A DNA stretch of 64,000 bases from Thuidium tamariscinum. Lineage: Eukaryota; Streptophyta; Bryopsida; Hypnales; Thuidiaceae. Made by a program: the position numbers and the translations under genes. This document shows, one piece after another, positions 13,777-55,268 of this stretch. The DNA lies in NCBI GenBank assembly GCA_947034885.2, contig OZ019759.1:8434501-8498500 (forward strand), read 5' to 3'. The notes under the pieces were generated by a model. That model was not told the origin of the DNA. It did not search any database and saw only the letters and a list, made by a program, of their open reading frames with translations. Numbering within the stretch: the stretch's first letter is position 1; the number at the start of each line of letters is the position of its first letter.

Positions 13777-13780
13777 GCAG

Positions 13781-17962: not shown

Positions 17963-18039
17963 GGCAAAGATTTGGGGGTATTTTGGTGGGTGCTCACCCC
18001 ACTGCTCTGTCGATTTGATATTTGGTTGTCTGGATATCC

Positions 18040-24252: not shown

Positions 24253-24601
24253 ATATCCTCAATACAAGGATAATTATCCACCATTTCACAACTACAGAAC
24301 TCCATTACACCGTCTGTCCCTAATGGAAAACATTATGAACTCCATGCAAACATCAAAAACAAAATGTGAAAATTATCCTCAAAGCGAAGATAATAATCGG
24401 AGACTGGACTGAATTTTCTCTCAAGATCATAGGGATGAATGCCACTGGATACGAATCATTACCTTTGGAAACGTAATTTATCCTCGACGCAAAGATAATG
24501 CTTGAAATTGCCGAGTCCATGATAATAAAAGTAAGAGAATCGATCATAGTCTCCCTGCATGGGACAACAGGAGACTAAAGTTATCTTTGACTCGAAGATA
24601 T
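24253..24601. repeat. Palindrome cluster B (four copies)
   Basis: Copies start at 24253, 24373, 24478 and 24581, immediately upstream of the copy 1 start codon at 24653. Arms are as in cluster A, with a few mismatches each. Confidence 0.88.
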
Positions 24602-24652: not shown

Positions 24653-25357
24653 ATGGCTGCGGAAGCCGATTACGACTACTCCGCTACAAGACCATTCATG
24701 GAGCCCTTCAAGTGGCAAGGAGATGTCCCATTCTTCTCTGACATGGAGGTCCAGTATGGCGAGTTGTGGACGCTCAAGTCAGTCGTCGAGTCTTGGACTA
24801 TGGGGATCAATAGATTCAAGAACTACGTATTCCTTCGCCTCAAAATAAAAGGGGCGGCGAACCATCAAATCTTCAACGTGAGCGAGAAGGTTACTTTCGT
24901 GGAGGACCACCAAAAAAAATATGTCGTCCTCAACCTTGAAGCAATCAATGACAAGGGCGAGGAACTGCCTTACACTCACTCAATTGTCATACACCAGGAT
25001 ACCACATCCAATTTTGACTTAGATGAGCTGATCAAATTTCTGCAAGAGGCAGCCAACGAAAATCTTACGAGAGAGATCACCAGAAAGTTTCATCCATGGT
25101 TAAGAAAAGATGTTGGGTCTATGGCAAAACGACTGAACTTGCTCCTATGCGATCTGGAGAGATACGCCTTCACAAACGTCAAGAAAGCAGGCGCTATAAG
25201 TCGCGGGGGATCGCATAACAGGCAACAATCGAATGTAGCATCCCAGAGTGCATCAGTCAGGAGAGGGACCTCCGCCAGCCAAGGTAGCGGGCCCAATTCC
25301 GCTCTAACTCAGCCTAGGAAGCGTAAACCCACCACTACAGAGGTGGCGCGAGTCTAG
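24653..25357 (+). CDS. Copy 1, module 1: N-terminal domain exon
   Basis: The start at 24653 (MAAEADYDYS) is chosen because the frame upstream runs through the palindromes and because the homologous frame in copy 2 also begins near this point. Residues 1-170 look globular (LWTLKSVVESW, RFKNYVFLRLK, SEKVTF, KYVVLNLEAI). Residues from about 180 form a Ser/Gln/Arg-rich, probably disordered tail. I do not recognise a family. Copy 2 has a clear relative at 54585-54947 (LWQFKDHIYTW, FRNYVYLR, KEKVTLI), which supports it as real coding sequence. The frame ends at TAG 25355-25357. A Ser/Thr/Arg-rich stretch continues in another frame to about 25.5 kb, so a frameshift or intron lies here. Confidence 0.6.
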   Translation: MAAEADYDYSATRPFMEPFKWQGDVPFFSDMEVQYGELWTLKSVVESWTMGINRFKNYVFLRLKIKGAANHQIFNVSEKVTFVEDHQKKYVVLNLEAINDKGEELPYTHSIVIHQDTTSNFDLDELIKFLQEAANENLTREITRKFHPWLRKDVGSMAKRLNLLLCDLERYAFTNVKKAGAISRGGSHNRQQSNVASQSASVRRGTSASQGSGPNSALTQPRKRKPTTTEVARV

Positions 25358-25498
25358 CGGTAAGCGCCAGAGAGCGCCGACACGGAGTCGAGCTACTGCG
25401 GTTGGTAGTTCGGGGTCAGCCTTGACAACCATGGCGCCTGTAGCGGTTGGTAACGACCAACCAATCAAAAAATATGAGCTTGCAACAGCATACCAAGA

Positions 25499-26068
25499 AA
25501 CTTCTGGAATAACTGCAAGGATTGCTTTATTTTTGATCCACACACCTTCACGGTATCTATTGACAAATGCTTCTTAGCGAGGCCTAAATACATCATTAGG
25601 CAGTTGGAGTAGAAGATTGTCACCGAAACTCGTGAATTCCTGGTCGGTCTGTCGGATAAGAGGCAGCGTTAGACCATCTGTCTCACACCCATTAATGAGA
25701 ACAAAAAGCTTTTGAAAGAGCAACCGACGAGCTGGGATGAAATTAAAGATGGGAGTTTCTTCATCATCAATGGACAGCACAGCATCACTGCGCCAAAGCA
25801 GCTTCAAAAAGGTGGTTGCTGTGAAAAGAGAAAGCAAGAACTCCAGACATGGGACGCCACGATAGTGTGGAGCCTAAGCGCGGAGAAACTTACTCAGATT
25901 TTGGGCTGGTACAATAAGACTAACCATCTGAAGCATAGTCAGCCAACCTGGGGCAATCAAATTTCTCTATGTCGGTCGATCTGGGTTAGCTCCAAGAGAC
26001 CTACTGCTGTGGAATCAAACCCTGACAAGAGAAATAATGGTTCCAAGTTCGACAAGGTTGCATATCAG
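25499..26068 (+). pseudogene. Copy 1, module 2: ParB/DGQHR-like module
   Basis: The frame begins around NFWNNCKDCFIFDP and ends at a CAG/GTAATG donor after KVAYQ. The core is SWDEIKDGSFFIINGQHS (NGQHS at 25769-25783), followed by ELQTWDATIVW, YNKTNHL and QPTWGNQI. The hydrophobic strand plus N/D-G-Q-H motif is like the ParB/sulfiredoxin-fold and DGQHR families, where DGxHR lines the active or nucleotide site; here D is N and R is S. Copy 2 has IINGEHN at the same place. In-frame TAGs lie at 25610-25612 and 25670-25672. The assignment is by motif only. Another unrelated fold with a chance NGQH remains possible. Confidence 0.45.
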
Positions 26069-26086
26069 GTAATGTTGTTTTGTAAT

Positions 26087-26191
26087 TTATCCTCGAGTCG
26101 AAGATAATGTATCTATCGAGAGTTTTAATATCTTTGTGACAGTTTCTAGTTGAGCTTATTACTGTGTCCATTATCCTCGAGTCAAGGATAA
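26087..26191. repeat. Palindrome cluster C, in or at an intron of copy 1
   Basis: Copies start at 26087 and 26171, between the module 2 donor (26069) and module 3. The centre of the 26171 copy (CGAG/TC at 26181/26182) is the only AG that joins modules 2 and 3 in phase. Confidence 0.85.
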
Positions 26192-27591
26192 CTGTAATAC
26201 AAAGTTTCATCAGATTAAGTTTGGAACCAATGCTAATGCGAATGTGGATTGCTATGCTACAAAAATTTGTAGACGCTTTGATATTTCGGTACCAGAGCGT
26301 GAATCCAAAGAAAGACGGGAACAACGTCAACAAAGAATCCGACGTAAAAAATGAAATCAGAATAGTAACATTGGATGATGAGACATACCTGTTATGGGAG
26401 ACGTTTCTGAAGCGCCACACGGAAGGGACTCTTCTCGATCCCTGCACAGGGAAGTCATATCGGGTGGCCAAGAACTTCAACCTCAAGACTTTCGAGTTGA
26501 AGAGAGAATTCTTCAAGCATTTAGGGCACTTCACAGATCATGATCTCTATGAGTATGTGCTCCATTTTCTAGGAAAAACTCCAGGTCGCTCTCTGCCATA
26601 CCCGAAAGTCTCAGTGGGGAAGTCAAAGTTCTTGGTTGAGGATAATATGTCCCATGCTGATTGGATAGAGCGTCGGAAGCGGAAGAAGGTAGTTCTCGAG
26701 GAGTTCATGGCTATTGACAAGGGCTTGAGGCTGAAAGATCAAGAAGGAGATGTAAAGGACGGTCTCTGGAGAGAGTGGAAAGAGATACATCTCTTTAGTT
26801 CAGCTTCTTGGAACTTTTTGTTGAACGCATTGCCGGCGCCCTTCTTCGTCAAGCGTCTAACCAACGAGGGCAAGTTGAAGACGGCTGTGGACTATAAGGA
26901 CAAGGCATTCCCTACAGTCTTCCCTCTATTGAAGAGGTTTCTTCACCTGAAGAGCAAGGTGAAGCCGTCCAAAGGGAAACTGCAGATTTGTGGGCATGAT
27001 TGCTTTCCTCAAGGCTTCAGTAGCAGTCATGCTTGGACTTACCAGAAGCGAGGACTTCCTTTTGGAGTCATTGACTTCAGGCAGCTTCCCAGGCTGATTC
27101 CGAGCTCAGGCCAACGTGATCCGATGTTGCCGCTTTTGAAGTTTTTATCCGACCACATGAGGCCCAATTTGGTCGGTCCAGAAGTGTGGTTGTGGATTCC
27201 AACCAATGCTTTCGAGTACGAGGAGGCTGCAACTTACGCGGAGAAGAAGATGAAGCAGTATGTGGTGAAAATCGCTCTCTACATCGAGTGCAAGGCTGAG
27301 AAGTTGAACAACACTACAGTGCGGAAGGAGCTTCCTCTAGTGAAGCTTCTCTTTCTTATTCGAAAAGACAAAGACGGTGCTCTAATAGAGCACAGTTCTT
27401 TAAAGAAGGTGTACACCACTTCCGACGGCACCTTCTACAAGGACCTCCGGTTTAATACCAAGTCCAAATTTAGATCCCATCCTAGTGAGCTTAGGATGGA
27501 GTTCTCTATCGACGTTCTTCAAGGTTTTGCTACAAGGGGAGAGAACGTCCTCAGCATCTACGGGGGATTGAAGTTTTTACTTGCCGCAAAG
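26182..27591 (+). CDS. Copy 1, module 3: permuted methyltransferase-like exon
   Basis: An uninterrupted exon, followed by a clean phase-0 donor (AAG/GTAATC at 27591/27592). The start is the best phase-compatible acceptor, not proven. In order: WIERRKRKKVVLEEF, a strand-like FGVIDFRQ (27061-27081), VWLWIPTNAF, KIALYIECKAEKL, ELPLVKLLFLIRKDK, HPSELRMEFSIDVL, and ENVLSIYGGLKFLLAAK (27541-27591) joining over the intron to MFCYVVVDRHQ. This order matches beta-class N4/N6 amino-methyltransferases, with motif IV first and SAM motif I last (HP-x-E, then VLDxFxGxG). The DPPY position reads DFRQ and the Gly-rich loop reads YGGLK, so methyl transfer is unlikely. Copy 2 shares the same losses (VDFRE). 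Confidence 0.45.
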
Positions 27592-27935
27592 GTAATCATC
27601 TTCCACCTCTTTCGTTTCATTATCTTCGGGTCAAGGATAAACCAGTGATATTGAAAGCAGTACTCCAGGAACGATAATGAAGTGTAATATGACCATTATA
27701 TCTTCGGATCGAGGATAATATTTTGTTTGATGATTTATCTTCGACCCGAAGATAAAGGTTTGTTCATCTTCAACCCGAATAAAATGTAATTTCCTTCTAC
27801 TGTCTAGAAATGCGTTGAAGAAATCGATAACTTACTTTGCTTGTCCTTACTACTCTCTATAAAAGTTTCTAGCTATGGTAATCGTGGTTCGAGAAAAAGT
27901 TGGTTCTTTATTAATTAGACTTTCATGTGTTGTAG
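27592..27935 (+). other. Intron of copy 1 carrying palindromes
   Basis: A phase-0 GT-AG intron of 344 bp between LLAAK and LCGMFCYV. The copy 2 intron at 51833-52052 interrupts the same residue (FMLAAK then MFGAYYY). Both carry palindromes. Confidence 0.75.
27620..27780. repeat. Palindrome cluster D (three copies plus a remnant)
   Basis: Copies start at 27620, 27698 and 27735, with a truncated one at about 27768. The copy at 27735 has one mismatch from perfect symmetry. All lie inside the 27592-27935 intron. Confidence 0.88.
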
Positions 27936-29423
27936 CTTTGCGGCATGTTCTGCTACGTTGTAGTAGACAGACACCAGAGGGAGAAGCTCCTACAACTTGT
28001 GAGGCGTGGCATCGCAGCGGATGTGAATGACTTTCTTCACAACAACTCGCCATACAAACCCAACTACGTTCGACCCCGTTTTTTGCACTTCCCTGACCCT
28101 GACTCTGACTCTTCTCGAGAAGAGTCAGAGGATGATGATTCTGCCGAAGGGGCAATACCCGCGGAGGTGGTCAAGGAGGAAGTTGTTCTACGGAGGAGAA
28201 AGGAGCCAATAGTGGACAACAACGGGGAGGACGAGGAAGAGGATACTGAGGGATCTCTTGAAAAGGAGGACTCCGTGCCTCTCGGAGACGGAGCAGAACT
28301 TGGCATTGACGAATTCGGGACAAACGTCAACATTGTCCAGAATTCAGATTTGTAGCTCACCGCCAATGATTTTGAGGTGAGACCGCGACAGCGCTTGTCA
28401 TCATCGGTTCTTGCAGAGGAGCCACAGGTGGAGTATGAGAACGTGGAAAAAGAACCTGATGTGGTGAAGGTGGCCGCGAATTACGAGGGCAAGGAAATCA
28501 TTGATTTGAGCGAAGGTGACTCGTACGGTGACCTTAGACATTTGAATTACGATGCACCCATTCCGGACACCGCGACATCCTCTGGACCACAAGATGGAGA
28601 GATGTCCAAGTAGGATCCTCCCACAGATGCCGAAAAGAATGCTGGGGGTTCTCTAAGCGGTTCGGCTCCAAAGGCTTTGGAGGTGAAACAAGAGAAGTCC
28701 GACTGGTGGCAAAGACGTAACGAAGAGGTCGCCAGGGTGAGGAGGGAGGAGGCATTGGAGAGGGAGAATATGCGGGCTGAATTGGAGAGGATAAAGGAGG
28801 AGAACCTTCGTCTGAAGGCGGAAAATGCCAAGACTACAGCACTATCTCATGATGCGCATGCAGATGTGCCGAATAAGAGTGTTTCCTCAGTGCAGTTGGA
28901 GGGTGCAGGTGTTGGGGATTATCCCCGAGGCGAGGATAAATCAGTAACCCCCTCCCCTTCCCCCAGAAGGCAAATTTGATCTCCTTTTGTTGTGACGAAT
29001 TATCCTCGAGGCAAGGATAGAGGTCTCCGCCAATCCATTCCATCTCCTAGGCAATTCCGTTCCCCTCCTCCTGATGACTCACAGGATCTAGCCCTTCCTC
29101 TTCACAACAAGCAACCGAGTCCCAAACAAAGGACTGGTTGCACTGCGAGTCTCGTTGCTAGACTTGCAACTTGTGTAAATTATCCTCAAGTCGAGGATGA
29201 TTCCAGTACCCCTAATGATCAGGATTATCAAGAGCAAGAGTGCGCTGCCACGATTCCTGATGCTGAACGGGATGAGCAGGCGCAAGAAGAAGTTCCGCCT
29301 CCGACAACGTTGCCCATTCGGAATTATAAGGTTGAGTCTTAGAACCCACTTGATGATGAAGATGAAGAGCAAGTCGATTACGGTGATGGCAATGAGGATG
29401 CCATGGAGTTGGCGTTTGGACAG
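27936..29423 (+). pseudogene. Copy 1, linker exon: acidic and coiled-coil region
   Basis: One frame runs from the acceptor at 27935 to a CAG/GTATCG donor at 29423/29424 with no indel. It finishes the methyltransferase-like fold (MFCYVVVDRHQREKLLQLV), then becomes acidic (EEDTEGSLEKED, DDEDEEQVDYGDG). A Glu/Arg-rich helix, RREEALERENMRAELERIKE, is likely coiled coil. Three palindromes lie in frame as YPRGED, YPRGKD and YPQVED. Stops in this otherwise continuous frame: TAG at 28353, 28611 and 29340, and TGA at 28977. The low-complexity content gives no function. Either this copy is dead or the stops are read through. Confidence 0.6.
28919..29200. repeat. Palindrome cluster E, exonic (three copies)
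   Basis: Copies start at 28919, 29000 and 29180 inside the linker exon, all in the same frame (Y-P-R/Q-x-E/K-D). Copy 2 also has three in its linker (51186-51266). Confidence 0.88.
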
Positions 29424-29786
29424 GTATCGCCGCAAACATCTGACCCCTACTGTCTTGATTGTGTCTCTGGGAATTCTAAGTGATGAGTACTGCTCTGTCT
29501 TTGATGCTTGCTCCGTTTTGTAGTGAGAGACTCTTATATCGTCTCGTCTTGTTGACAGGAGGGAGTGGAGAGTCCGTGATTGACTTGCATCGACAAACCT
29601 CCTGTTTAAAATCATTTGTTGTAGTATTGGTCACATAGTGGGGCGAGGTTTAGATTGTACAGAGACAGTAGAATTTCAGCAAGAGTTCTACCACATGTAA
29701 ATTAAAATTTTTGGAAATAAATATTTGTGTACATAGTTCAATTTAAGTTGTTTGTAACCATCTGTTTTTGCATATGTTTTGTCCAG

Positions 29787-29918
29787 CGCATGGGGCTGAA
29801 ATATTTGCATCGTCCTTTGGCACTCAAACATGATTTTAATGAATGGATTCTGCAATCGCTTAGTAGGGGGCAATGGGGTTCGCCGTTGTTTGGATCACCT
29901 GGGTTTGCGTTTCATCAG
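29787..29918 (+). CDS. Copy 1, small exon before the phosphatase
   Basis: A 44-codon phase-0 exon between a GTCCAG acceptor and a CAG/GTAACG donor. It encodes MGLKYLHRPLALKHDFNEW and a Gly/Phe-rich tail. No family is recognised. Clean splice sites and phase fit on both sides support it. The intron to the next exon would be only 36 nt (29919-29954), unusually short for a plant, and in frame it contains a TGA. Confidence 0.5.
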
Positions 29919-29954
29919 GTAACGCCACTTCTCTATTGTTTTTGATTTTACCAG

Positions 29955-30794
29955 GTAGTCACAGGCAGCGGTGGAGAGAGAGTTCCTCGGAGTGTTGCCT
30001 CGGTAGCACCCGTTAGGCCGAAGAAGTGGTTGAACCTCGTCTTCGACCTAAACGGAGTGCTTTGTCATTGCGAGAATAGGACCTTGTATAAGAATGAACC
30101 TGTCCATTTTCCAAAGGACTGTGTTTTCTCGGATCGGGTTCCCACGCTAGTTGCGTCGAAAGCTGTCTTCGTTCGTCCCAATTTGAGGGACTTCTTGAGG
30201 GAAGTCGGCCAATTAGCAGACCGTATTGTATTCTGGAGCTCCATGGTCCACAAGAACGCCGAACCCATTGTCCGGTTTCTGTGCAAGAACAATTTAGAGG
30301 CCTTCGTTGTATACGGTCAAGAGCAGTGCAAGACCATTGAGCGTTCACCAAGGAATTTTCTCTTTGAGGGACTCAACCCTACAAAGCGTTTGTTTCTGAA
30401 AATCCTCGATGAACAGTTGTTCACACGGCCTGCGGATCCCATGTATTTTAACGCAGACAACACTATTCTTATTGATGACTCCCCAGCAAAGAATATCTTG
30501 AATGATAATGGGAACGCAATATTTTTGGAGTCGTGGAATCAATTCCACCGTGGGGACAAAGTACTGATGTTAGCCCTCCTCCCCTTGCTCAAGCGAATTA
30601 GTGAATACTGCCCCCCCGGGCGCTTGCGTGATTTTGTTGACGCAAATCGCATAGGTCAACCCTCGCTGACGCGTTCCTCGTATGGCATGGGTCATATGTT
30701 GGAAGGGTTGAGGGAGTCGGCTAGGAATTTTGGGTGCAACTACGTGCTCCCGGGGATGGGTGTAGTGATCAAACCAGAGCGATGCAGGACATAG
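29955..30794 (+). CDS. Copy 1, module 4: FCP1/NIF-like HAD phosphatase
   Basis: The exon opens after a TTACCAG acceptor (VVTGSGGERVP), and the domain runs from WLNLVFDLNGVL. Numbering from Met 30030: motif I DLNGV with the nucleophile Asp6 kept and the usual second Asp replaced by Asn8, as in the plant DLNG subgroup; motif II FWSSM (70-71); a Lys near 120-124; motif IV ILIDDSP (Asp149, Asp150). FCP1/SCP-type enzymes remove phosphate from proteins such as the RNA polymerase II CTD; with Asn8 the activity is uncertain. The domain length is normal and the frame is intact to TAG 30792-30794. It lies in the same orientation and splicing context as modules 1-3, and copy 2 repeats this order, so it is part of the same gene or tightly linked. 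Confidence 0.8.
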   Translation, partial: VVTGSGGERVPRSVASVAPVRPKKWLNLVFDLNGVLCHCENRTLYKNEPVHFPKDCVFSDRVPTLVASKAVFVRPNLRDFLREVGQLADRIVFWSSMVHKNAEPIVRFLCKNNLEAFVVYGQEQCKTIERSPRNFLFEGLNPTKRLFLKILDEQLFTRPADPMYFNADNTILIDDSPAKNILNDNGNAIFLESWNQFHRGDKVLMLALLPLLKRISEYCPPGRLRDFVDANRIGQPSLTRSSYGMGHMLEGLRESARNFGCNYVLPGMGVVIKPERCRT

Positions 30795-30952
30795 TCTCTT
30801 GCGTGCGATTTCGCATTTGTAGAATTAGCTATAGATTTAGAGGAGTTGGAATACATCTGTAAATATTATCCATTTGAAATATAATGATTTTGATTTTCAA
30901 CTTCATCTTGGTTGCGCTGTAGTATTCTTGAGTGTCTCCTTGATTTGGTTGA

Positions 30953-30973
30953 GTATCTTTGAATCAAGGATAA
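30953..30973. repeat. Single palindrome F
   Basis: A degenerate palindrome copy (GTATCTTTGA arm, AAGGATAA end) between the phosphatase exon and the last exon. Confidence 0.75.
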
Positions 30974-31007
30974 TGGGAGGGACTCCTTCGCATTTTTCCT
31001 TTTTCAG

Positions 31008-31916
31008 ATTGAAGGAGGTTTTAAGGTCGTTCATCCCCAGCCACTAACTAGGAGCTTATTGTCCAGATCGGACGCGGCGTTGTCCGACACGTCCGAATTC
31101 GATGAGCGGAGCGGTATGCCTTTTGTTGATTCCAGACCTATTATGTTGCGTTCAACCACGGATGCAGCATCTGCGGCCATCGACTTCTCCAAGGGAAACG
31201 TCGATGATGATGCAGTTGACAGTCCGCCGAGCAAGGGTCCGGCCAGGACTCCCGTCTGCTCACCATCCCCTCTGAAGTGGCCAATCTCCAAGCCCAGTCG
31301 ACTACGATCCCAGTCACCAACTCCCCATGTTGAAATGGCTGTACAGAGGAAACTATATGCGGACACGGAAGTAGTTCCGGAAGATCTTCGAGATGAAGAC
31401 GATGTTCCAGTTGCAAATGCACCTGAAGCCCCTGAAATCGTCAAATGGGATGTTGGGGTAGATTTGTCGACGAGAGGACGTAAGAGGAAGGTACCTTGTC
31501 CTTCCCACAGTGTCGGTGATGCTTAGCAGCTGCAAGGCATTGCTGGATCTGCACCTTCAACACTCGTAAGGTGTGAATTTTCGCCTTTCGTGGGGCCTCT
31601 ATCGCGCGTAGCTGTTCTTGCGGGGTACCGGCGATCGAATGGTGATCGGGCAACTGCCACTGATGATCTTAATGTAAATACCCTCCACAGATCCTTGCCT
31701 AAACCACCTCCTTACAATTCCAGGTCACTTTCAAGCACAGGCGTTCCTTGAAGTGATCGTAGGGAGGCTAGGGAACTCATGAAGATAGGAATGTGGACCA
31801 TTCCTAGTGTGGAACCTACATTTAGGCCTTCTCACCGCGAGGATATTCTTAGAGGGCTAGCTAAGCTGAAAGCTCAAGAGGAAAGTGGTAGCCATGCTTC
31901 CCCGAAGAAGAATGGC
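31008..31916 (+). pseudogene. Copy 1, possible C-terminal exon, low complexity
   Basis: It follows a TTTTCAG acceptor at 31007. One frame continues to TAG 31914-31916 with interruptions at 31524 (TAG) and 31749 (TGA). The sequence is Ser/Pro/Asp-rich with a basic patch RGRKRKVP that could be a nuclear localisation signal, and ends LRGLAKLKAQEES. No family is recognised. Its connection to the phosphatase exon is unproven because that exon ends in a stop; it may belong to an alternative transcript. Confidence 0.45.
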
Positions 31917-34900
31917 TAGTTGAGACATTTGTGTCCATATCCCTAGGGCCTTGGTTGACATTCATCCCTATTAGTAGACTATACATTTATATAATGCAAC
32001 CACTTCTTGGTTAGGAAAAAATTCAATGCACCCATCCATTAGCATGTGCCGTTTATATTTAGACATAAAATACATCACCCTAATCAATCACAAATAGGTA
32101 TTTGGGATTTCATTTCTTAGGAAGTGAAGTATATAGACATGTGAGGTAAATAGTTTCATGTATACATGAGTTCTAAAGCATCTTTAGAATATTTTTCAAT
32201 GTAAAGAATTTTTTTGAAATTGTTTTATATTTTTCAATCCCTTGTATGGAACTCTCTTCTACGGTTTCCATCTTATTGTTAAAGTCTTCTGGTACTCAAG
32301 GCACATTCTACATGGAAAATGTTTTGTATTCATGGCCTTCTTAAATATTTATCTTTGCCTTCAACAACTTATTTTTGAATTGAAGGAGACTTAAGTTCTC
32401 ATTATGACCATTTTTTCTCAATTTAATGAATATGGCCTTTTTGCATATTTTCAAATTTACTTTTATATTGTTTGGTAATATGGTCCTTTCTATCTAATAC
32501 ATTCATAAATGCCAATATTTTGAGTTTTAATACAACATTCTATACGACAAGATCAATTGATGTTAATCTGGGTGTTAATCTAAATTCAGAGTTAGTCTTA
32601 TATAGTTTGAAAGTAAAGAAAATGATTGAAGTCTGTACTACCTACTTCTTTTATACCAAAAAAAATGATGAAGGGATTTTATGGGAAGAGGAGTAGGAAA
32701 AACAAACAAATAAAACTTTCAATAAATATATGAGTATGTTTTTTCTATATCCTAGGGACTTCTTTTTTATTAATTTATTGAGCACCTAACACAATGGGAT
32801 GGAATCAATTTAAAGTAAATATATACAAACCAAAAAAGGGAATAGATAAATATTTGAAGTAGTTCAAATTGATTTCTATTTTTGTATGGATAGGGTATCA
32901 TTTTTTTAGCAAAAGGTTGTAACTACGCGTGAATTTATGCTAAGAAAACAATGTTACATTATTATTTTGAGTGCTTTTGTGTTATTCATGGTGCACAAGA
33001 AGAAATCCAAAAAAAATTCATTAGTAAACCAAATGCTACAAGAGTCTATTGCTTAGTCTACTGGGAAAATATAATTTTATGGCTATTTTATTGTATTTGT
33101 TTATGGATATTTCTCAATTTTATAATGTTTGATTGAAAGTTAATTTTTTTTAGTAAATAGTTACTAAAACTTATTGGAATTCATTTGATTGCTTTTTAAT
33201 TTGAACATTATGTTTAGTAGGGCACGAAGAATTTAATTTTTGCTCCTACAGAACACCTTTGAAAGGTTAAGGCACCTACACTTGTGTTAAATTAAAACAA
33301 AAATTAATTTGAATATCTAAATTCCTTCCAATCAAAATCAATAGTAGTAAGTAGTATCTATTTGTCTTCTACATATCCTTTCAATTACATGAAGTCTCTT
33401 AAATTAGTGCCCATATTACCTAAGTTACCAATCATTATAATATGTTTGTAAAGTTTAGGTTCTACATGCACAAAATTGACATGTTAAAACCATAACAAGG
33501 TCAACATAAAATCAATCAAAAATTAATAATCATTGTTAGTACATGGAGCTTTTCAAAAGCATCTAATCTTAATTTTGCAGGTATAATTCTATTTTTTAGT
33601 TGAGATTCTGATTTTTGTGATATAATTTTCAAATTATAAGAATACATTTTCTTATTAGACCATATATGTTATTATATAATCAAGTTTTTTGTTTTACTAT
33701 TATATTGTATGTAGTATTTAAGAATTTTTTTAATTGGTTCAATGAGGTGAATGTATTATGTTTTTTTATAAAATATTTTGAAATAAGTATGGACAATGTA
33801 CAATGTACAATGTCCTATATCATAAAATGGTAAATATATGTCTTTTTAGCATGCCCGTTAGCATCTCGGGGAGTTCACTCCTTTATATATTTTGCAAACA
33901 TGTGCGATAGTGACCTATTTAACGGGGTCTATCTATAAAATGACCTATTTATAACATGGAGGTGTTTTAGGGCACCCTATTTTATATAAAATCTTATTTC
34001 TCACTGATTACATAATAATATTTTACATATAATCTTATTTCTCACTTTTTAAGTACCTGATATTAGATGTTATTTTTTACAAATTTTACATGGAATGAAT
34101 ATATTGGATCGTACTTTTTTTATCACACATGGTCTCTAAGACTTTCACCAATGATCTTCTTGAGGTTAGCATTGCAAAATTGAAATATTTTAAAGTTTCT
34201 TTCTAATTTTCACTAGGGGAATTATTGAGAAAATATGCACTATTTAGCAATGCAAAAGTTGTTTTTTAGGAATATTTGATGAGATAATGTTTATATATTA
34301 CTAGATGAAATTTCAAAGAAGTATCCAATGTTGGAAATATTAGATCATTCTATTTTTGATGAATGTATAAAATTACTTTAAATCCTTGAAGGAAAACACA
34401 AATGTCTAGTTTTCCATGAATGACAAACAACTTTGATTTGTAGGATAAAAGTGCAAATATTCATCTTCAAAATATATAAGAAAGAGGTATAACTCTACAT
34501 AGCTTTGACTTCTAGTAAGTCCTTTTGGATTTTAGTAACCAATTATAACCGTTTTTAGCTTATTTGGGGAATTCCCTTCCGCATAAATAAAAAATGGCCC
34601 CCCTCAATTGTTAAAGTTTTAGTAGAATACATAAGGAGGAAGGAAATATGCATAGGTATGATTGTGCACCTTAGAGTGAAAAACACAGCCAGTCCATGTC
34701 TGCAAATTATAACTAAAATGTTACTCTAGAAGTATGTAAGGGGGAATTATCCTTCCATGGAGGAATACGCAATAACTTGGCTAACAATGTTAGAATGATT
34801 TCCGTGGTAATAAAAATGGATGGTTTCATGGTCACCAAAATTCATCCTTCAAGTGTTAAATAGAATGTTTTTCATCCATGTATTGTAGGTTTATTTTATT

Positions 34901-37900: not shown

Positions 37901-37918
37901 AGTATATTGAGACTGCAC
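31917..37918. other. Long AT-rich spacer, no gene recognised
   Basis: Short scattered frames only. A three-fold ACAATGT repeat lies near 33.79 kb. Frames around 35.0-36.1 kb on both strands are short and unlike known proteins. Confidence 0.5.
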
Positions 37919-40900: not shown

Positions 40901-41431
40901 CAATTTCATGTTCCTCTGATTAATACCTATAACTAGGCTTGTTTGCCTAGCACTAACAGTGTTTGAACCAAGGAGCATTGGAATTATGACATTCCCAACA
41001 CGTTGGTTGTCTCTGGAGTCGCACCCTTTAACTTGCTTACATCCTTGTGAAAGATTGCCTACAATATTGTGGACTACCTCCATCTCACTATAAAAAGGTA
41101 GTACTGGTTGCCAAACAACATGCTTTAGAATTTTCGATAATAGTGCCTTTTGGTATTCCAATCTCCTCCGGCTAGTTTCCTCAAACCATCGGATTGCCCA
41201 CTCATTTGCCACTCTATTAGTAGCTCGCTCTATATTGATTGAAGTAGATGTGGTGCCTACAGTAACTTGCTCAGTGTTTTGTAAAGTGTTATGTAACATA
41301 ACTCTCTTCCTCTCTCGATACTTTCTGGCCCTCTCTATTGCTTTGGCTCTACGCTCCTGTACTAAATTCAGCTCCTCTAGCCTTGATCTAGTCCCCTGGC
41401 CAACTCTCCGACCATCTTTACAAGGTGCCAT
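37919..41431 (-). pseudogene. Decayed transposase-like gene (SDGC/GHGKG type)
   Basis: N-terminal part from ATG 41431 (MAPCKDGRRVGQG), with a basic helix ERARKYRERKRV and, across a TAG at 40850, DYWTSNTRISPNRKDVVRKR. After an interruption: SFETLRSWFVRRMKEFNTCCC (39.7 kb), Cys pairs CELCGVSKLKICPQE, VIDFAENYSF (39.13 kb), HIIFFDGCAAQFKCAKNL (38.87 kb), WFGSGHGKGWWDGDGAHVKK (38.73 kb), then GDHFVVHADEGGNGPEI and DQIVIGTYY (38.2-38.0 kb). The xDFxENY and xFDGCxxQFK strands look like RNase-H-fold DDE positions, and GHGKG-x3-DG is a signature I associate with eukaryotic transposase-like proteins. I cannot assign a superfamily. Multiple stops and frameshifts show it is dead. Confidence 0.55.
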
Positions 41432-44400: not shown

Positions 44401-44519
44401 GCTACCTCCCGCGATGTACCATCTTCGAACTGCCCCTACTTTGACTCCCTGGTGTCTTTGCAAAAGCCTTCACTGGAGTAGTCTTGATTGCCATCTGGGT
44501 CCAAATCTTCTGTTCCGCA
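41432..44519. other. Spacer, no gene recognised
   Basis: Mixed-composition DNA with short frames only. One half-palindrome (TTATCCTCAA) occurs near 42227. Confidence 0.5.
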
Positions 44520-44830
44520 TCAATTTTTGAATTTTGAATCCCTTAGTCTGGAACATTTCCGGATTGATTCCGAATTCCAAACATTTTTGGATTGATTCCG
44601 GATTCCAAATATTTCCAAATTCCGGATCTTAACATTTCTGGAACATTTCCGGAATCCACATCCTAAATACTTCCGAATCATTTCCGGATTGATTTCGAAT
44701 TGATTCCGGATTCCTAAACATTTCCAGAATCCAAATCCTAACTATTTTGGGAACATTTCCGGATTGATTCTGGATCTTGACTATTTCTAGTTCATTTTTG
44801 GATTGATTCCGGATCCAGTCCCAATATTGC
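44520..44830. repeat. Degenerate TTCCGGATTGATTCCGG repeat
   Basis: Blocks of CATTTCCGGATTGATTCCGG alternate with ATTCCAAAC/ATCCTAAC-type spacers at least six times, with many point changes. Related TTCCGGATT motifs occur sparsely from 43.38 to 45.28 kb. This could be an internal repeat of a decayed LTR element, but I found no LTR pair. Confidence 0.6.
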
Positions 44831-47604: not shown

Positions 47605-47770
47605 AAAGGAGGTACACATGATAGTGTTTGAACCGAACTTTCACTTTAAATACTTAAAATGTCTTAGTATTTCAAAATTTTGGATTCAAAGGAGGTACAC
47701 ATGACAGTATTTGAACCGAACTTTGGCGTTCAATGCTGAAATTTCCATGGATCACTGGTCAATCAAGGTG
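47605..47770. repeat. 83-bp tandem duplication
   Basis: AAAGGAGGTACACATGAXAG followed by TGTTTGAACCGAACTTT occurs at about 47605 and again at about 47688, giving an 83-bp period and two copies. Confidence 0.75.
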
Positions 47771-49486
47771 AGAATTAGTCTCTAGTACAATAATATGAAT
47801 GAAGATCATTTGAAGGGGCCCTAAGCCTTCAAATTTGAAAAGAACAATACAGCTTGGCTAAGATGTTTGGTCCAAGTTGTGCTCCGACCACGTTGGTAGC
47901 ACAAATAAGAAAAGAGGATCAAAGTGTCGGTGCGAGAAATAAGGGTACTGGCAACCTCGAGGGGGCCCTCATATACCTGTGGCTGGGCCCTCCCCGGTAA
48001 ATTGCCGGTGAAAATACTTTGTTACTTCTACCTCTAAACTACCCTAATGTAATTTCCAAATAATACTTATTTAATGGTGAAAATTTCTAGAAACATCCCC
48101 ATTTAGCTAATGAAATCTTGGACAAATCAAATCCAAGATCTTAAACCAAGATATTTTGAAATTAACCCTAATTTACGTAGATATTTTGCAAATTAACCAA
48201 AAGTCATTTTGAAAATTGTCTTTCTTTAGTCCAAAGATGGCTTTTTACACAAGAAAGAGATCTTGACCAAATCCAATCTTCGATTTTCCAAGAGATATTT
48301 TCAAAATCACTTTGAATTAACCGCAATTAACGATTAAAAAGTCAAACTAAGAGCTGACCCTCTCTATCTTTTAGGGAACAAATCGAAACGAAAAACCATT
48401 TGCGCCAATGTCTTCAGAAGACCCCAATTAGCCTAAGGGACCCCTTATCCCTCACTCCTAGGCCGTTTGCGCGCCAAAATTGGAATTACGGTAACTCCAA
48501 TTAAAAGTCAAAAATCTAACTTTTAGGATTTGTGCATTTTGATGAATCTGTTAGGCCAGGGTCGTTAGGAATGGCTATAAGAGTAAGGAATGTCTCCCCA
48601 TTTGCGTCAATCGGACATCATTCGCTCCTGATACACCGGTCAACCCGCCGCCAAATTATAAATTCCATTGAAATTCAATGTCAATGCGGTTCTGGTAGTT
48701 GGGAATGTCGAAATGTCTTCAAACTTAATTGGGCGCTTATTAAGCACACAAAAACCTATTCTAATTTTTAGTGATATTTTACCGCATCATACGTAATTTC
48801 TAGGAATTTACGAACATTTCTATGTGCGGTTGACTTCCCATGGAGTCAACGTGAAATTTTGAAAAAATCCAAAATAATTTGGGTAACATCTAGGGCACTC
48901 CTAGATTCTTAGTGTAAGTTCCATGCGATCTTGCACTTGTCTATTTTTAGTAATTTGGAATTACTTTGTCCCATTGGACAATTTAATTCCTGATACCCGG
49001 GAATTTTGAACAATTGTCTGATTCTTGTTCGCTCCTGGCATGTTCCTACCCTTGAAACACCTTTCTGTAGTCTTCAATCTCCAATCTCTCCATCTTCCAT
49101 GTCTTGAAATTCCAATTCTCCAAGTCACACGTAATTGTTATACTTCTGAATCCAATTTATTCTAAAATCGAATTTAGGCCTTGGTAAACCTTCTAGGCTT
49201 GTAGTAGACTCTTTTGGCATAGTCAGTATGTCATGTGCATCCTTAAAAGGTTGATTTTGCACAGACAAACACGAGGACTAACTAACTCTCATTCCCTCAT
49301 TTCTCTCGAAATTACTAAATCTTCATTCAAACTTACTTCTAAGACTTAGAATGATAGAAATTCCTAGAATTAGGAATTTTCCACCTTCTAAGATGGTCTT
49401 GTACCATCTTGATAGAGATTACTATCAAGTCTCTCCAAACACTATTTTTTATATCTTTTTCTTATTTTTTAGCTAAATTTCGCAAT
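47771..49486. other. Spacer, no gene recognised
   Basis: No convincing frame or repeat was seen. Confidence 0.45.
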
Positions 49487-50240
49487 TTATTCACGAAAAA
49501 TGGACCCAGAGTTCCGAGTGCCATCTTGAGGGCTCATACCAAGCGGATTGACGCCAATTCGGTTGTTGTCAACATATTCGAGCAACCCTCTTTCTTGGTC
49601 GCACTTTGAATGGAGTCGTCGGATCCACAGTAGTAGTTGCCCCATGAGCATATCGTCCATGCGTTTATCGTGGGTCTATGACTCTAGATGCAACGTATTT
49701 CCACTTATATTGAAGACCTTCTTTTGGGGGGAGTCATCAATGAGAATGGTATCATGTGCAAAAAACAACGCGCCCTGACTATCAGTGCCAAACAGATCAC
49801 CCTCGAGGAATTTCATGAATAGGGGAGACTTCCCCCAATGAAAGAATTTGCCAAGAGTGGTTTCTATTTTCGTGCATTGCTCTTGGCCTAAGACATTGTA
49901 AGGCTATCAGCCCTTGCAAATAAAGTATTCTGCAATCAGTTCGGCATTCTGCTTGACCATGAATGACCACATTACAATTTTATTTGTTATCTCCAAAACA
50001 TGTCAGAGAAATTCGGTGACGTTCTGTCATGCAAACACCACCTTCTGGTCAATGATCATGGGGTTCTGATGGCTGAGAACATTACCTTCAAGCCTATACG
50101 GTTTGAATTTGTCGTTGAACGACTTCAATGTGGTGTGGCACAACGCCCTGTTCAAATTGAAGACAATGTTCAGTCACTTCCTCCTCGGCGGAGGCATCAT
50201 AGGACGTTCTATCCTCCGCATGACCACTCTTTGCCCCTCT
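49487..50240 (-). pseudogene. Copy 2, module 4: dead HAD phosphatase relic
   Basis: It aligns with the copy 1 phosphatase: LNIVFNLNRALCH against LNLVFDLNGVLCH, VMWSFMVKQNAE against VFWSSMVHKNAE, GQEQCTKIE against GQEQCKTIE, and DTILIDDSPQKKVF against NTILIDDSPAKNIL, ending with YVDNNRIG. The catalytic Asp of motif I is Asn, so the enzyme would be inactive. In-frame stops: TGA at 50174 (opposite Trp in copy 1), 50027 and 50003 (both opposite Arg), and 49917; TAG at 49914 and 49676 (the latter opposite Trp). The frame ends at TAA 49487-49489. Homology is clear despite low identity, so this is an old relative, not a recent duplicate. Confidence 0.8.
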
Positions 50241-50758
50241 AATCCTACCTGATCAAAGTAGGACAACAACAAGTTGGAGTTACCTAGTTGGAGTTACTAA
50301 GTTGGAGTTACCTAGTTACATGCGAAACTGGTAAAGGCAGACTGCAGAGAAATGCATTGCAATTCGCTACTTAACTACGTCCTCCCAATAGGAAGTCCTT
50401 CCGTGGGTAGCGAGTGATGCAAGCTTACATTTTTTTCAAGCTGAGCCAAAAAAATATGAACAATGGAATACAATTAGATACCATTCACACTTTGTTGATT
50501 GTAAAGTATATATTTTATTGACGTGGTTTTAAATATACATTTCAAAATTTTTAGTCTGCCGAAACTATACACTCCGTATGTTCTACTTTACACTATTGTA
50601 CACGTTGTCCATCGCAGACAAGTTCTTCGTCAGCGCCAAGCAATCAAGGAGTAGCGACCTCCTCCTGCCAGATACCATAAATACAAATGAGATTCATAAC
50701 CACTTCCAACACTTCCTATCTCTAACAAGACAATGACATGACTTTGGGTTACCTCAAG
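50241..50758. other. Copy 2 interval between linker and phosphatase
   Basis: It probably holds the remains of the small exon and an intron. A ~14-bp repeat (AGTTGGAGTTACCT) occurs about three times at 50270-50315. No confident alignment with the copy 1 small exon. Confidence 0.35.
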
Positions 50759-51832
50759 TCAATTACAGCCGTAAGGGTCACAAGTTTGTATCTGCACGAA
50801 CTCAATCGTATCGAGGGCGGCTTGCTCTCCTAGTGTTGTAGCAAGAACATCCACATTGCCTTCTTCGAGGACATTGTCATCGGGCTCATTTTCTCCATAG
50901 TCTAACTTCTCTTCATTGTCCACAGAAGTTGACACTTCCATTAAAAGTTGCACTTGCTTCGACACCCAACATTCTGATGCATTTGTGCCTAAGTCCTAGT
51001 TGACAGTCTCCTCAAGAATATTGTCGAGTCGATGATAATCTTGAGCCTGTTCTACTACAGGTCCCCTTGGTTGAGGAAGGGAAACCCGAAAAGCACCCTC
51101 ATCAGGCGAGACCACAATTAGAGTCAATTGTAATGCCAGGGTGCACGCCACAACCTCATCGTGTGCCAATGAGGTCACACAAGCAGTATCCTCGAGTCAA
51201 GGATAAAGAAGCAAGTTATCCTCAAGTCAAAGATGAGAAAGTGAATTATCCTCGAGTCAAGGATGAAGAAGTCCAACCACCATGTCCTTGTCATCTTCCT
51301 TTGCCCGCCTCCCACGCTTGGCTCTCTACCACTTGAACTCCGAGTTCGTCTCCATCTTGTCATTTACCTCAAACTCATTATCTGTGGCAGTTAAATTGTT
51401 TAAAGGATCTTCCAGCATACCTTGCAACTCTACTACCTCCAAGTCCAATTGATTGTCTGCTTGTACGTCAATTTGTGGAGCTTATGCAATCACGTCTCCA
51501 TTCGCCATCCACAAATAAATTTGGAATGTGTTCGTTCTAAACTCGTTGAGGCCTTGCACACCTGGATTGGATGTCACATGAAGGCCAACATTCTCCCTTT
51601 GTCAAGGGACTGGAATGTTCTCTATAGTTTAGGAGATCATGGGAGGTGAGGCAGGCAAGTTCGAATGAACCTCAATGGGGCTACAAGGAGCTAGCTTCTC
51701 ATATGTCAAGGAGTAAAGGGAATTGATTATTATGAAGTCCCTCCAATCCATCTTCTTTGCAAGATAAGAAATTGCAAGATACACCTTGACGTCATTCCGA
51801 TCAACGAAGCCGTAATAATACGCTCCAAACAT
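50759..51832 (-). pseudogene. Copy 2, linker exon
   Basis: It begins at ATG 51832 after a TGGTAG acceptor (MFGAYYYGFVDRNDVKVYLA), the counterpart of MFCYVVVDRHQREKLLQLV in copy 1. It continues as an acidic, low-complexity frame and then carries three palindromes in the order seen in copy 1. On the minus strand these read YP-stop-LED or similar, where TGA replaces the CGA of the consensus. Stops include two TAA codons (near 51625 and 51483), so this part is more decayed than the aligned domains. Confidence 0.55.
51018..51266. repeat. Palindrome cluster G (four copies)
   Basis: Copies start at 51018 (a TCGATGATAA-arm variant), 51186, 51216 and 51246. The last three are spaced exactly 30 bp and read YPRVKD, YPQVKD and YPRVKD on the plus strand. 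Confidence 0.88.
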
Positions 51833-52052
51833 CTACCAAAACATGTCAAAGAACCAATCAAAATATATCATTATTATTAGAAGTGATAATAGATCGTCAC
51901 ATATAATTTGCAATATCATCGAATCGATGATACTTTATGACTACATTACAAAGGTCATGTACATCATTAAGAAGATGTTTGAAACTTAGACATGACTCAA
52001 GGGACGATATCCCTAATGCGAAGATAACATCCAGTACAAGAAAAAAATGTAC
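51833..52052 (-). other. Intron of copy 2 at the same residue as in copy 1
   Basis: A phase-0 GT-AG intron of 220 bp between FMLAAK and MFGAYYY. It carries palindromes starting at 51913 and 52007. Confidence 0.75.
51913..52027. repeat. Palindrome cluster H (two intronic copies)
   Basis: The copy at 51913 has arms ATATCATCGA and TCGATGATAC, a symmetric variant: A replaces Y in one arm and T replaces R in the other. The copy at 52007 is degenerate. Confidence 0.8.
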
Positions 52053-53441
52053 CTTTGCTGCGAGCATGAACTTTGCTCTTGCATAAACACCTAGAACGTT
52101 TTTGTTTGATTTTGCAAATGTTTGAAGCATTTTTAGGTAGAACTCCATACGCAGTTCTATGGACTCTATCCTCCACTTTGCCTCCGTGTTTTTCCCCCAA
52201 TCCCAGTAATACACATTCTCAAGGGAGTGAAGTATTTCTTCTTCACAAAGTCACGACTGGAGGATACAAAGTCGTTGTTCTTTTTGAAGAGAAACATGAG
52301 AAGAACATCTACAGCAGGCGTTTGATTGGTGAGGTTGCCCAACAGCTCGTCTATGCCCGGACAATATATGGAAAGAATGTAGTCGTAAGTTGCAAGATTC
52401 CAAGATGCAAATGACTTTATTGCCTTGAAGTTGTTGTTGTTCTTCAAAACAAAGAGCCTCATGTTTGGCTTCATCATCCTAAGTTGCAGATTAAGATGAA
52501 GGAAGTTCAAAAAGGGGTCAATGGGGCGTTCAATTTTGGTGGCTTCTGCTCTCAACACTTCTCTGAAGTCCACAAGAGCAAAGTTGACCTCCCTACTGTG
52601 GTACTGGTAGGTCAAACTTCTCACCAATGCTTTGGCATTCATATCGACCCTACACACTTGCACTCCTCTAGCAGGTTTAGGAAGTTGATACTTCAACTTC
52701 ATAAACCTTGTGAATATATGAAGAACCTTAGGAAATTGCTTCTTGAGGTCTTTTGCATACTTCAACCAAGCATCATTCCGTAAGCTTTTTTTGTAATAAT
52801 TTGGCTTAAGGTGAGTGAGCAAAAAGTCCCACAACGCTAAAGTGAATCTATGTCATGCCTTCCAGGACTTTGACATCTTGTCCACAACGTTGCCACCAGT
52901 AGTCAAAAATTTCAGGTCTGGCTTCATGGCCATCAGATCCTAAAGAATTACTTTTTTCCACTTTCTCCTCTCAATCCACTCCTTGTGGGTTGTGTTGTCA
53001 AGCACAAGGATCTTTGTTGTTGCAATAGAGTCCTTTGGATATAGGGCCAAATGTCCAGGCATTTCTCCAAGAAAATGAATAGCATTCACTCCAAAATCCA
53101 CATCTATGAAGTAGTTGAAATATTTGAAAAATTCCCGCATCAGCAACATGTTCTTTATCTTGAAGCCCTTCATATCCCTATATGGTTTCAAGGCACAAGG
53201 GTCAATCAAATTTCCCTCGGCGTGCTTCATGAAAAAGTTCTTCCAATGTACCCACAAATCGTTGAGAAGTGTGATAATTTGAATCTCATTCTTGAGATCT
53301 CAGGTGCTATTTATCGTCACATTGTCTCGCTCAGGATTTATATTTTGCAAGAGCTCAATGACTGCATCTTTGAAGCTTTGTATAAGCCACCCCAGACAAG
53401 CAGATCCATGTAAGATGTTGAGTCCATTCCTAGTTATTGTC
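52053..53441 (-). pseudogene. Copy 2, module 3: methyltransferase-like relic
   Basis: It aligns with copy 1 throughout: WVHWKNFFMKHAEGNLIDPC against LLWETFLKRHTEGTLLDPC, EWIERRKWKKVIL against DWIERRKRKKVVL, WDFLLTHLKP against WNFLLNALPAP, FALVDFREVL against FGVIDFRQLP, and ELRMEFYLKMLQTF then NVLGVYARAKFMLAAK. Stops at 53300 (TGA), 52940 (TAG) and 52853 (TGA), plus a frameshift near 52.24 kb. The DPPY position is DFRE and motif I lacks its Gly loop, as in copy 1, suggesting the family lost methyltransferase chemistry before these copies diverged. Confidence 0.6.
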
Positions 53442-53588
53442 GACTCGATGATAATTGTAATCACTTGATCAATATAAAAAATTTCAAAGTAAACATTCTA
53501 AAAAATGTAAAGACATAGATTGACACTATCCTCATTTGAGGATCAACATCTAACATGTCTCAACACCTTATCACCAAGTCGAGGATAA
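53434..53588. repeat. Palindrome cluster I, in or at an intron of copy 2
   Basis: Copies start at 53434, 53526 and 53568, at the intron between modules 2 and 3, the position of cluster C in copy 1. The first uses TCGATGATAA arms. Confidence 0.85.
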
Positions 53589-53609
53589 GGAGATGAAAAC
53601 AATTAGTAC

Positions 53610-54330
53610 CTTGTACTTGTCCAGATCCCACATTGCCTTGTTCTTCCTTGTTGCGTCCTCGGTCCGAGTATCCATGGGACGCTTGTATATTACCCAAATG
53701 CTTCTTCAACTAATTATTTGGTTCCTCCAGGTGGGCTAGGCATGGTCCAGGTGGTTAGTGCAGTTGTAGAACTTAGATATATTTTTTAACTTGCTCTCAT
53801 CTAGAGTCCAAGCAATATAGGCATTCCATGTCTTCAATTCAATTTTCTGGGTCTCCTTGCAGCCTACGAGTTGAAGCTCTTGAAAAGCAGTGGTGTTATG
53901 CTCACCGTTGATTATCATGAATTGGCCATTCTTGATTTCGTCCCACGACTCAGGTTTTCTTTGCAGTAGTTTTTTCTTCTTTTCGACAGGTATAAGGTAC
54001 ACCTTTTGCCACTGCTTGACATCTATGAGCTGAACAAGCTCTTTTTTCACAGCGTTGACTACATATCTCTTTGCAATGTGCAAATAACATAGTGTGAAAG
54101 TGCGATAATACATTGTTTGATGTCAATCTTCATTGCAACTTCGTCAAACAAGAAGCATGTCTTGTGGTTGGCCCAAAATTGTTTTTGAATTTTCTAAAAC
54201 TTCTCAAATTCTGGTACCTCGTCCTTACTTTCTGCTGGAGGAACCAAAACTTTAGTGAAAGCGGAACTTAAACTAAAACCCCCATGTAGGTCCACTATTA
54301 CTAGTTTTTTTCCTCTTCCGGCTTAATTCC
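53610..54330 (-). pseudogene. Copy 2, module 2: ParB/DGQHR-like relic
   Basis: It reads KFWANHKTCFLFDE (copy 1 NFWNNCKDCFIFDP), then after a frameshift ESWDEIKNGQFMIINGEHN (53895-53909 encode NGEHN), ELKTWNAYIAWTLDESKL, YNCTNHLDHA and TWRNQII. It ends at an AAG/GTACTA donor (53610/53609). Stops: TAG 54194-54196 and TGA 53706-53708; the latter stands next to Arg-Ser-Ile-Trp, where copy 1 has Cys-Arg-Ser-Ile-Trp. The shared core with copy 1 defines the module. Confidence 0.55.
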
Positions 54331-54584
54331 ATGCCTTCAAATGACGGTGGCTCTTGTCTTTTGGACTCAGACCTTGTTGTTCCAGGTCTTGAGCCCCTAT
54401 CCCCTAATCCTGCACTAGATGATGATCGTGGCTTTCGACTCTTGCCTTGCTATTGGGGCATTGGTATTTGGTCGGGACTTCGACCAATTGCAGGTTCTTT
54501 TTCAACATGCTCCAATGCATAGCGGTCCAATGTTTGAAAAATTAAACGCAATCTCACAGCGTTGGACTTTGCAGTGGTATTTCT

Positions 54585-54947
54585 CTATGGGACGTATCCT
54601 GATTTCTTAAACTGGTCATTCAAGGACTCCATCTTAGAGCCTTCCAGTGATGTCATAAGATTGGAAAAATCAAAATTCCCGTGGAAACAATTTTCGTCTA
54701 AAATGACTAAATGGCAGTGATCTTGAGGCTTCTCAGTTTTGTCGACAACACAAAGTACGATGACGACGTAGTTGACTTGGTATTCTTTAATTAGTGTCAC
54801 CTTCTCCTTCAAGTTCCATGGCATGTACGTATTGGTATCCCGCACACGATAGCGTAGATAGACATAGTTCCTAAACTAGTTCATCCAAAAACTCCAAGTA
54901 TATATGTGATCCTTGAATTGCCAAAGCGTGTCATACGTATTAGCCAT
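54585..54947 (-). pseudogene. Copy 2, module 1: N-terminal domain relic
   Basis: ATG 54947 (MANTYDTLWQFKDHIYTWSF). It aligns with the copy 1 N-terminal exon through FRNYVYLR, LKEKVTLI, NYVVIVLCVVD and the following acidic loop. A TAG lies at 54876-54878. The 3' part of the exon is not recognisable. Confidence 0.6.
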
Positions 54948-55268
54948 CTTTGCGATGAAACTAAGGCTCATCATTGAAAGGATTAACAAATGGTTCTAGA
55001 TGATGCAATGTGACCAAATAATTGTAGCCATCTATAACTTCCATTTGTAGTTCACTGCACAAAATCAATTTCAAGATGTTGGGAAGAATGATGGGAATCA
55101 TCAATACGGTGATGATTTCTTTCATTTTATAAGGAAAGAATTTTCTATTCTATTACTAATTAGGATTCTGTATTAGAGCTAATTTTGAGAAAGCATCAGA
55201 TTTATTAAACAGATGCTTTTGGTACATAACTACACGGATGTTGTCTTTTTTTGTACACTAATTGTACA

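Follow-up and report, generated by a model that had tools for sequence, protein, structure and literature searches.

A moss DNA transposon carrying a putative regulator with ParB-like, methyltransferase-like and phosphatase-like modules and its candidate palindromic sites

Overview

The stretch of DNA analyzed here (the window) comprises 64,000 nucleotides of the moss Thuidium tamariscinum, positions 8,434,501 to 8,498,500 of contig OZ019759.1 in assembly GCA_947034885.2. Positions 5414-32439 of the window form a DNA transposon with terminal inverted repeats (TIRs), which is interrupted by a long interspersed nuclear element (LINE); other copies of the transposon are about 18 kb long. The element carries two divergent genes, one encoding a DUF7869 protein and the other a fusion protein with ParB-like, methyltransferase-like and phosphatase-like modules. 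Our preferred explanation, with a probability of roughly 0.55, is that the fusion protein is a regulator that binds palindromes of its own element and most likely counteracts silencing; this reading draws on sequence comparison, structure prediction and analogy with described systems. The element itself is a TIR DNA transposon, which is a known kind. To our knowledge, a protein of this architecture with matched palindromes has not been described.

Ends, layout and copies of the element

The TIR has the sequence AAGGCCATATTCGTTAAATTG and reads inward AAGGCCATATTC(G/A)TTAAATTG; at the left end of the window copy, TTTG replaces TTCG. Eight copies were compared (the window copy and c4 to c10, the retrieved sequences of c4 and c5 lacking their left parts), and the comparison showed a sharp right end, with the left end found beyond the LINE insertion. 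All four copies with both ends read are flanked by 4-bp target-site duplications (c9 AGTG, c7 TTGA, c8 AAAA, window TTTG). The features of the window copy outside the fusion gene are as follows.

5410-5413: left 4-bp target-site duplication, TTTG
5414-5440, plus strand: left terminal inverted repeat, AAGGCCATATTTGTTAAATTGGGAAAA
6049-9547, minus strand: DUF7869 gene (candidate transposase), decayed and split by an insertion at 7460-8035; Pfam PF25273, E 6.3e-13 for 6307-7269; 90-95% in tblastn with copy c9
13357-20756, minus strand: LINE-like retrotransposon inserted into the element and foreign to it; RVT_1, E 6.2e-18; absent from copies c6 and c10
32413-32439, minus strand: right terminal inverted repeat
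32440-32443: right 4-bp target-site duplication, TTTG

A genome search with the TIR pattern, allowing up to 2 mismatches, gave 498 matches, against 0 for the reversed control. Position tests used the first 100 of these matches; 73 of them have a listed module no more than 30 kb away, and 27 have none. Among the 100 are 16 facing pairs 8-45 kb apart, and every one of the 16 encloses places of both genes, methyltransferase and DUF7869. Spans of 17.2-18.9 kb are seen in twelve pairs; the remaining four are longer (21.7-41.0 kb), presumably because of insertions. The pair result is the same with 91 methyltransferase and 79 of 125 DUF7869 places as with the full lists, the number of nearby TIR places then rising from 69 to 73.

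The searches for modules scored the best candidates: 90 of 470 and 150 of 243 for the methyltransferase, 124 of 720 for DUF7869 and 138 of 540 for the phosphatase, and, for a second clade introduced below (clade B), 94 of 459 for the methyltransferase and 49 of 950 for DUF7869. Neighboring rows were merged (methyltransferase 241 to 199, DUF7869 125 to 124, phosphatase 138 to 137), and the 50 clade B DUF7869 rows were left unmerged. At least 199 methyltransferase places of the window's own clade (clade A) were thus listed, and DUF7869 was listed within 30 kb of 112 of them. Conversely, a listed methyltransferase place lies no more than 30 kb from 105 of the 124 listed DUF7869 places, on the opposite strand in 102 cases and on the upstream side in 97. 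A same-strand methyltransferase place lies within 15 kb upstream of 122 of the 137 listed phosphatase places. An earlier note, made from the letters of the window, had proposed a mobile or multicopy element family; the TIRs, the 4-bp duplications, the copy number and this linkage bear it out. It is barely conceivable that the copies instead go back to a virus or to a multicopy host gene family that segmental duplication has spread. The large number of copies on a single chromosome would suit such an origin. It is contradicted by the TIRs, which at all four sites read have a different 4-bp duplication, and a scan of viral contigs gave 25 pattern matches and 0 confirmed relatives.

The DUF7869 protein is probably the transposase. 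An open frame of 970 amino acids is present in one copy, and the protein has 95 database relatives, the named ones being from Physcomitrium and Ceratodon. D444, D567, D609 and E649 are conserved in 99-100% of the rows that have a letter at these positions (85-95 of 95 rows), a pattern of acidic residues that would fit a DDE enzyme. DUF7869 was named in no paper found by the literature search. The insertion in the window's DUF7869 gene at 7460-8035 forms an inverted repeat of about 0.5 kb with 12461-12970, where its relative lies reversed elsewhere in the element.

The contig holding the window (C11; 17.5 Mb of the 363-Mb genome) is enriched in the element, with 103 of the 199 listed clade A methyltransferase places, 49 of the 124 listed DUF7869 places and 41 of the 95 listed clade B methyltransferase places. 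Two of the three named Ceratodon relatives of the DUF7869 protein bear VG locus tags on a 110.5-Mb contig. This accumulation and these tags suggest that C11 is possibly a sex chromosome.

The fusion protein

The fusion protein has the module order N-terminal domain, ParB fold, permuted beta-class DNA-methyltransferase fold, acidic linker and NIF/FCP1 phosphatase. In the window, the order is found at two loci, the first of them inside the element described above.

24653-25348, plus strand: N-terminal domain, weak FERM-F3/PTB-like fold
25499-26068, plus strand: ParB-fold module (NGQHS) with two in-frame stops; fold predicted on the relative L002
26221-27591, plus strand: permuted methyltransferase-fold module
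27936-28717, plus strand: exon in which the methyltransferase-like fold appears, by eye, to resume, followed by the acidic linker
29946-30794, plus strand: NIF/FCP1-like phosphatase module (DLNGVL); Pfam PF03031, E 3.3e-17
49541-54875, minus strand: second fusion gene of the same clade, more decayed; pieces 54588-54875, 53739-54122, 52943-53299, 52169-52852 and 51629-52250, acidic piece 50759-50995, phosphatase 49541-50248

The same five-part order at both loci had been claimed from the letters, and it holds: open frames were found at each, and the modules of the second locus resemble those of the first locus or of copy c9 at 26-44% identity. The values are 26% over 91 residues for the N-terminal domain (E 2e-13), 44% for ParB, 30% over 212 residues for the methyltransferase with 39% at the module end, 30% over 44 residues for the following exon (E 5e-4) and 37% for the phosphatase. 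The linker frame of the second locus has 18 acidic and 2 basic residues in 78, and its phosphatase site reads NLNRAL. At the intron position proposed as shared, a break separates the ParB exon from that of the methyltransferase in both loci, and L002 has an intron there. The ParB stretch at 25499-26068 is indeed a ParB module, but it is not open; because of its two stop codons the first copy is regarded as decayed. In the second locus, stops or frame changes split several modules, and neither element ends nor a DUF7869 partner was found for it within the window.

Among the scanned pieces of the fusion protein, NIF was the sole Pfam match above cut-off (63.1 bits in the window and 53.8 in L002, against a cut-off of 21.8), in agreement with the proposed FCP1-like phosphatase. 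The proposed ParB-methyltransferase core is backed by structure prediction, which supports a ParB/Srx fold and a permuted Rossmann methyltransferase fold of the beta class; the methyltransferase model leaves out the next exon, which is thought to hold the following strand. Classical active residues are altered in all three of these modules. The GxRR-type nucleotide motif of ParB is replaced by NGQHS; in 62 aligned rows, H occurs 61 times and S 56 times. In the methyltransferase, the (D/N/S)PP(Y/F/W) motif is replaced by D-x-R-x-x-P (D in 50, R in 48 and P in 42 of 51 rows), and the glycine loop is GxK (K in 43/43). The active site of NIF/FCP1-type phosphatases is DxDx(T/V). This motif is lacking here, where the site reads DLNGVL in all eight clade A copies compared and DLNGIL in L002. 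With their usual catalytic residues exchanged, the folds of the methyltransferase and the phosphatase are probably repurposed or have unusual chemistry.

It is quite improbable that the fusion protein still methylates DNA, as N6-adenine or N4-cytosine, at its own sites and thereby marks or protects the element. The predicted fold is nearest to DNA methyltransferases of these two types, and PF01555 matches L002 with an E value of 0.027, which is below the profile cut-off; the replaced catalytic motif and the GxK loop speak against such activity.

The E values of its relatives show that the family is beyond chance. The methyltransferase open frame has 58 database relatives (best E 2.6e-187, weakest 2.5e-14), and the exon of L002 holding the N-terminal domain and ParB has 69 (weakest E 3.3e-36), including P0104 and P0106 of Physcomitrium patens. 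Long open exons in the same module order occur in L001 (CADCWO010000269.1) and L002 (CADCWO010000243.1), both filed under cyanobacterial metagenome-assembled genomes (MAGs); L002 extends through the phosphatase, whereas L001 stops before it. Since named family relatives come from Physcomitrium and Ceratodon, the two contigs are taken for moss DNA. They and protein P0061, all filed as cyanobacteria (Synechococcales, Leptolyngbya MAGs), thus appear to be contamination of genome collections. The database clusters of the methyltransferase protein (P0012, 700 members) and the DUF7869 protein (P0140, 647 members) point to a possible recent burst in one of the organisms sampled.

Palindromic sites within the element

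Each of the four fuller copies contains a 21-bp palindrome, TTATCCTCGASTCGAGGATAA, at 20-24 sites with no more than 3 mismatches. At the same threshold, a scan of the window with TTATCCTCGAGTCRAGGATAA gave 33 strand matches, against none in 100 shuffles, and 200 scrambled palindromes gave 0 sites in c9. Counts inside the elements c9, c7, c8, c6 and the window copy are 24, 20, 22, 24 and 14, and counts in their fetched flanks are 0, 0, 0, 1 and 5, where the five belong to the second window copy and the right limit of c6 is the point at which homology stopped, not the TIR. In the mapped copies the two divergent genes each have sites upstream, and further sites lie in the first and second introns and in the linker; a weaker palindrome (4 mismatches) lies 3' of the phosphatase in five of the eight copies. 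The sites in the window are as follows.

9522-10226: seven sites, 2-4 mismatches, on the 5' side of the DUF7869 gene
24373-24601: three sites, 3-4 mismatches, upstream of the fusion gene ATG
26087-26191: two sites, 1 mismatch each, intron 1
27620-27755: three sites, 3-4 mismatches, intron 2
28919-29200: three sites, 2-3 mismatches, linker region, inside open frames (YPRGED-like reading)
51186-55289: sites of the second copy, up to 3 mismatches, at 51186, 51246, 53434, 53568 and 55269

In the genome, the palindrome has 113 exact matches and its control none. L001 and L002 carry another motif, TTCAGCTCGASTCGAGCTGAA (motif B), at 8 sites each. No clade A site was found in them at up to 5 mismatches, and motif B is absent from all eight clade A copies at up to 4 mismatches. 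Motif B also occurs in the window's genome, at 94 places with up to 1 mismatch (control 0). The clade B protein, found there with the L002 methyltransferase, has at least 95 places, none coinciding with clade A. The clade B DUF7869 protein, found with the Physcomitrium protein P0155, has at least 50 rows; for 33 of the 50 listed, a clade B methyltransferase lies within 30 kb, always on the opposite strand.

Each motif keeps to its own clade in most cases. Position tests used the first 50 places per motif, exact for the clade A palindrome (motif A) and with up to 1 mismatch for motif B. Within 10 kb, the nearest module is of clade A for 44 motif A sites and of clade B for none (6 have no module), and it is of clade B for 31 motif B sites and of clade A for none (19 have no module). 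Within 20 kb, 47 of the 50 motif A sites have a listed module, in all 47 cases of clade A and never of clade B, and 3 have none. Random positions fall near a module in 1-3% of cases on contigs C1, C6 and C7, which hold sites of this list, and in 25% on C11, which holds none of the 50 motif A sites. With DUF7869 places left out, the 20-kb test gives 43 clade A, 0 clade B and 7 none for motif A, and 32 clade B, 3 clade A and 15 none for motif B. The half-sites, TTATCCTCGA in clade A and TTCAGCTCGA in clade B, have TT and CTCGA in common and differ in the three bases between. Both motifs contain the core CTCGASTCGAG within clade-specific flanks.

The palindromes could also be RNA hairpins, cruciforms or small insertion elements, such as intron-borne repeats, with no connection to the protein. 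Several are paired inside introns and each can fold back on itself, but we consider this very unlikely. Compensatory changes in the arms do not exceed those in shuffles: among 128 distinct clade A sites there are 35 mirrored complementary changes, compared with 31.35 after shuffling, and 208 of 1000 shuffles reach 35. The half-sites therefore vary independently, a pattern easier to reconcile with a protein dimer on double-stranded DNA than with an RNA that folds back. The sites upstream of genes and in the linker, the common core with its clade-specific flanks, and the 0-1 sites in element flanks (the second copy aside) also argue against it.

Proposed function of the fusion protein

In the proposed mechanism, the fusion protein would be an element-encoded regulator that binds, probably as a dimer, the palindromes upstream of both genes and in the introns. 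By loading on these sites, it could keep the promoters of its own element accessible despite host chromatin. The methyltransferase and phosphatase folds may now serve as binding or recruiting modules, or may carry out unusual chemistry. Binding, dimerization and anti-silencing are each conditional on this reading, and anti-silencing is proposed because of the analogy with VANC of Arabidopsis and the precedent of VirB, a ParB relative that offsets silencing. A bolder version, advanced tentatively and at somewhat less than even odds, is that a ParB/parS-like loading system was taken over by a eukaryotic DNA transposon. The fusion protein would recognize about 20 palindromic 'parS' sites per element and keep the element active in the plant nucleus, and rival clades in one genome would have diverged as lock-and-key pairs through three mirrored bases per half-site.

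Several points weigh against a regulator matched to its own palindromes. The ParB arginines that VirB needs for its cytidine triphosphate (CTP) ligand read H and S in the fusion protein, and a DNA-binding helix-turn-helix was not identified in it. Some palindromes fall in the open frame of the linker, and 87 of the 199 methyltransferase places are without a listed DUF7869 place within 30 kb. At the 20-kb limit, 2 listed motif B sites are nearest to clade A, with 36 nearest to clade B and 12 to neither. Motif and clade would also segregate together if element-borne repeats were simply inherited.

Alternatively, the fusion protein may be a second transposition factor, an accessory of the TnpA type that assembles the element DNA through the palindromes for cutting by the DUF7869 protein. 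The fusion gene and DUF7869 occur together in an arrangement that is fixed and mostly divergent, and in the fetched stretches the sites are almost confined to elements. The mapped sites, however, lie at gene starts, in introns and in the linker and not beside the TIRs, and this role is considered unlikely.

Other features of the window

A 216-bp inverted repeat at 13561-13776, with 105-nt arms that are 90% complementary, looks like a miniature inverted-repeat transposable element and has relatives near copies c4 and c9. A tandem array of units of about 50 bp occupies 949-1311. At 62135-63523 on the minus strand, an open frame of 462 amino acids has no Pfam match (E up to 1) and contains a C-x-C...C-x-H pattern near its end that resembles the SWIM zinc fingers of Mutator-like element (MULE) transposases.

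Comparison with known systems

A literature search at title and abstract level, with most subscription papers and bioRxiv preprints outside its scope, found no description of the element or of the architecture among the papers listed. VirB acts against H-NS in bacteria. According to the accessible part of one account, it recognizes a parS-like palindrome, spreads and offsets silencing (PMC10653881). The moss protein resembles ParB/parS and VirB in its predicted ParB fold and in the palindromic sites on the DNA that encodes it. In contrast, it belongs to a eukaryotic element and is fused to other modules, and by motif reading G91, R93 and R94 of VirB, as given in that part of the account (PMC10653881), correspond to G-Q-H-S here. 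A ParA gene was not recognized among the open frames of the element.

Polyvalent proteins of mobile DNA also contain ParB-like domains, and in one case the domain is joined to an adenine methylase (PMC5512222). These phage and plasmid proteins differ in being prokaryotic and in their domain company, and an FCP1-type phosphatase is not among the domains described in the accessible part of that source. The methyltransferase module resembles the beta-class DNA amino-methyltransferases (M1.HpyAVI, M.BceJIV, CcrM and RsrI) in predicted fold and circularly permuted order, whereas its catalytic and glycine-loop motifs are replaced. Retrotransposons with acquired cytosine DNA methyltransferases are described from dinoflagellates and Klebsormidium in the accessible part of PMC5890265; they likewise are algal transposable elements with a methyltransferase domain, but of another methyltransferase class and in retrotransposons instead of a TIR DNA transposon.

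The VANDAL/VANC system of Arabidopsis is likewise a plant DNA element with an extra gene and with a short motif, specific to the element, that recurs in introns and upstream regions (PMC5735166, PMC10398659). The VANC proteins act against silencing, and loss of methylation is reported for VANC. Repeats of the VANC21 motif lie in these two places, and the targets of VANC21 and VANC6 differ in motif, according to the accessible text of PMC5735166. The moss element differs in its 21-bp palindrome, its 4-bp target-site duplication and its ParB-methyltransferase-phosphatase fusion, and the comparison concerns layout and motifs. If the proposed reading is true, a eukaryotic element uses a protein of ParB and methyltransferase folds with its own palindromic sites, and unnamed conserved moss proteins gain an explanation. 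Because one genome holds two element clades that differ in their sites, the specificity can be tested directly by binding. The moss system would then parallel that of VANC independently, through a protein whose architecture looks unrelated, and this would suggest that sequence-specific anti-silencing is a recurrent strategy of transposons.

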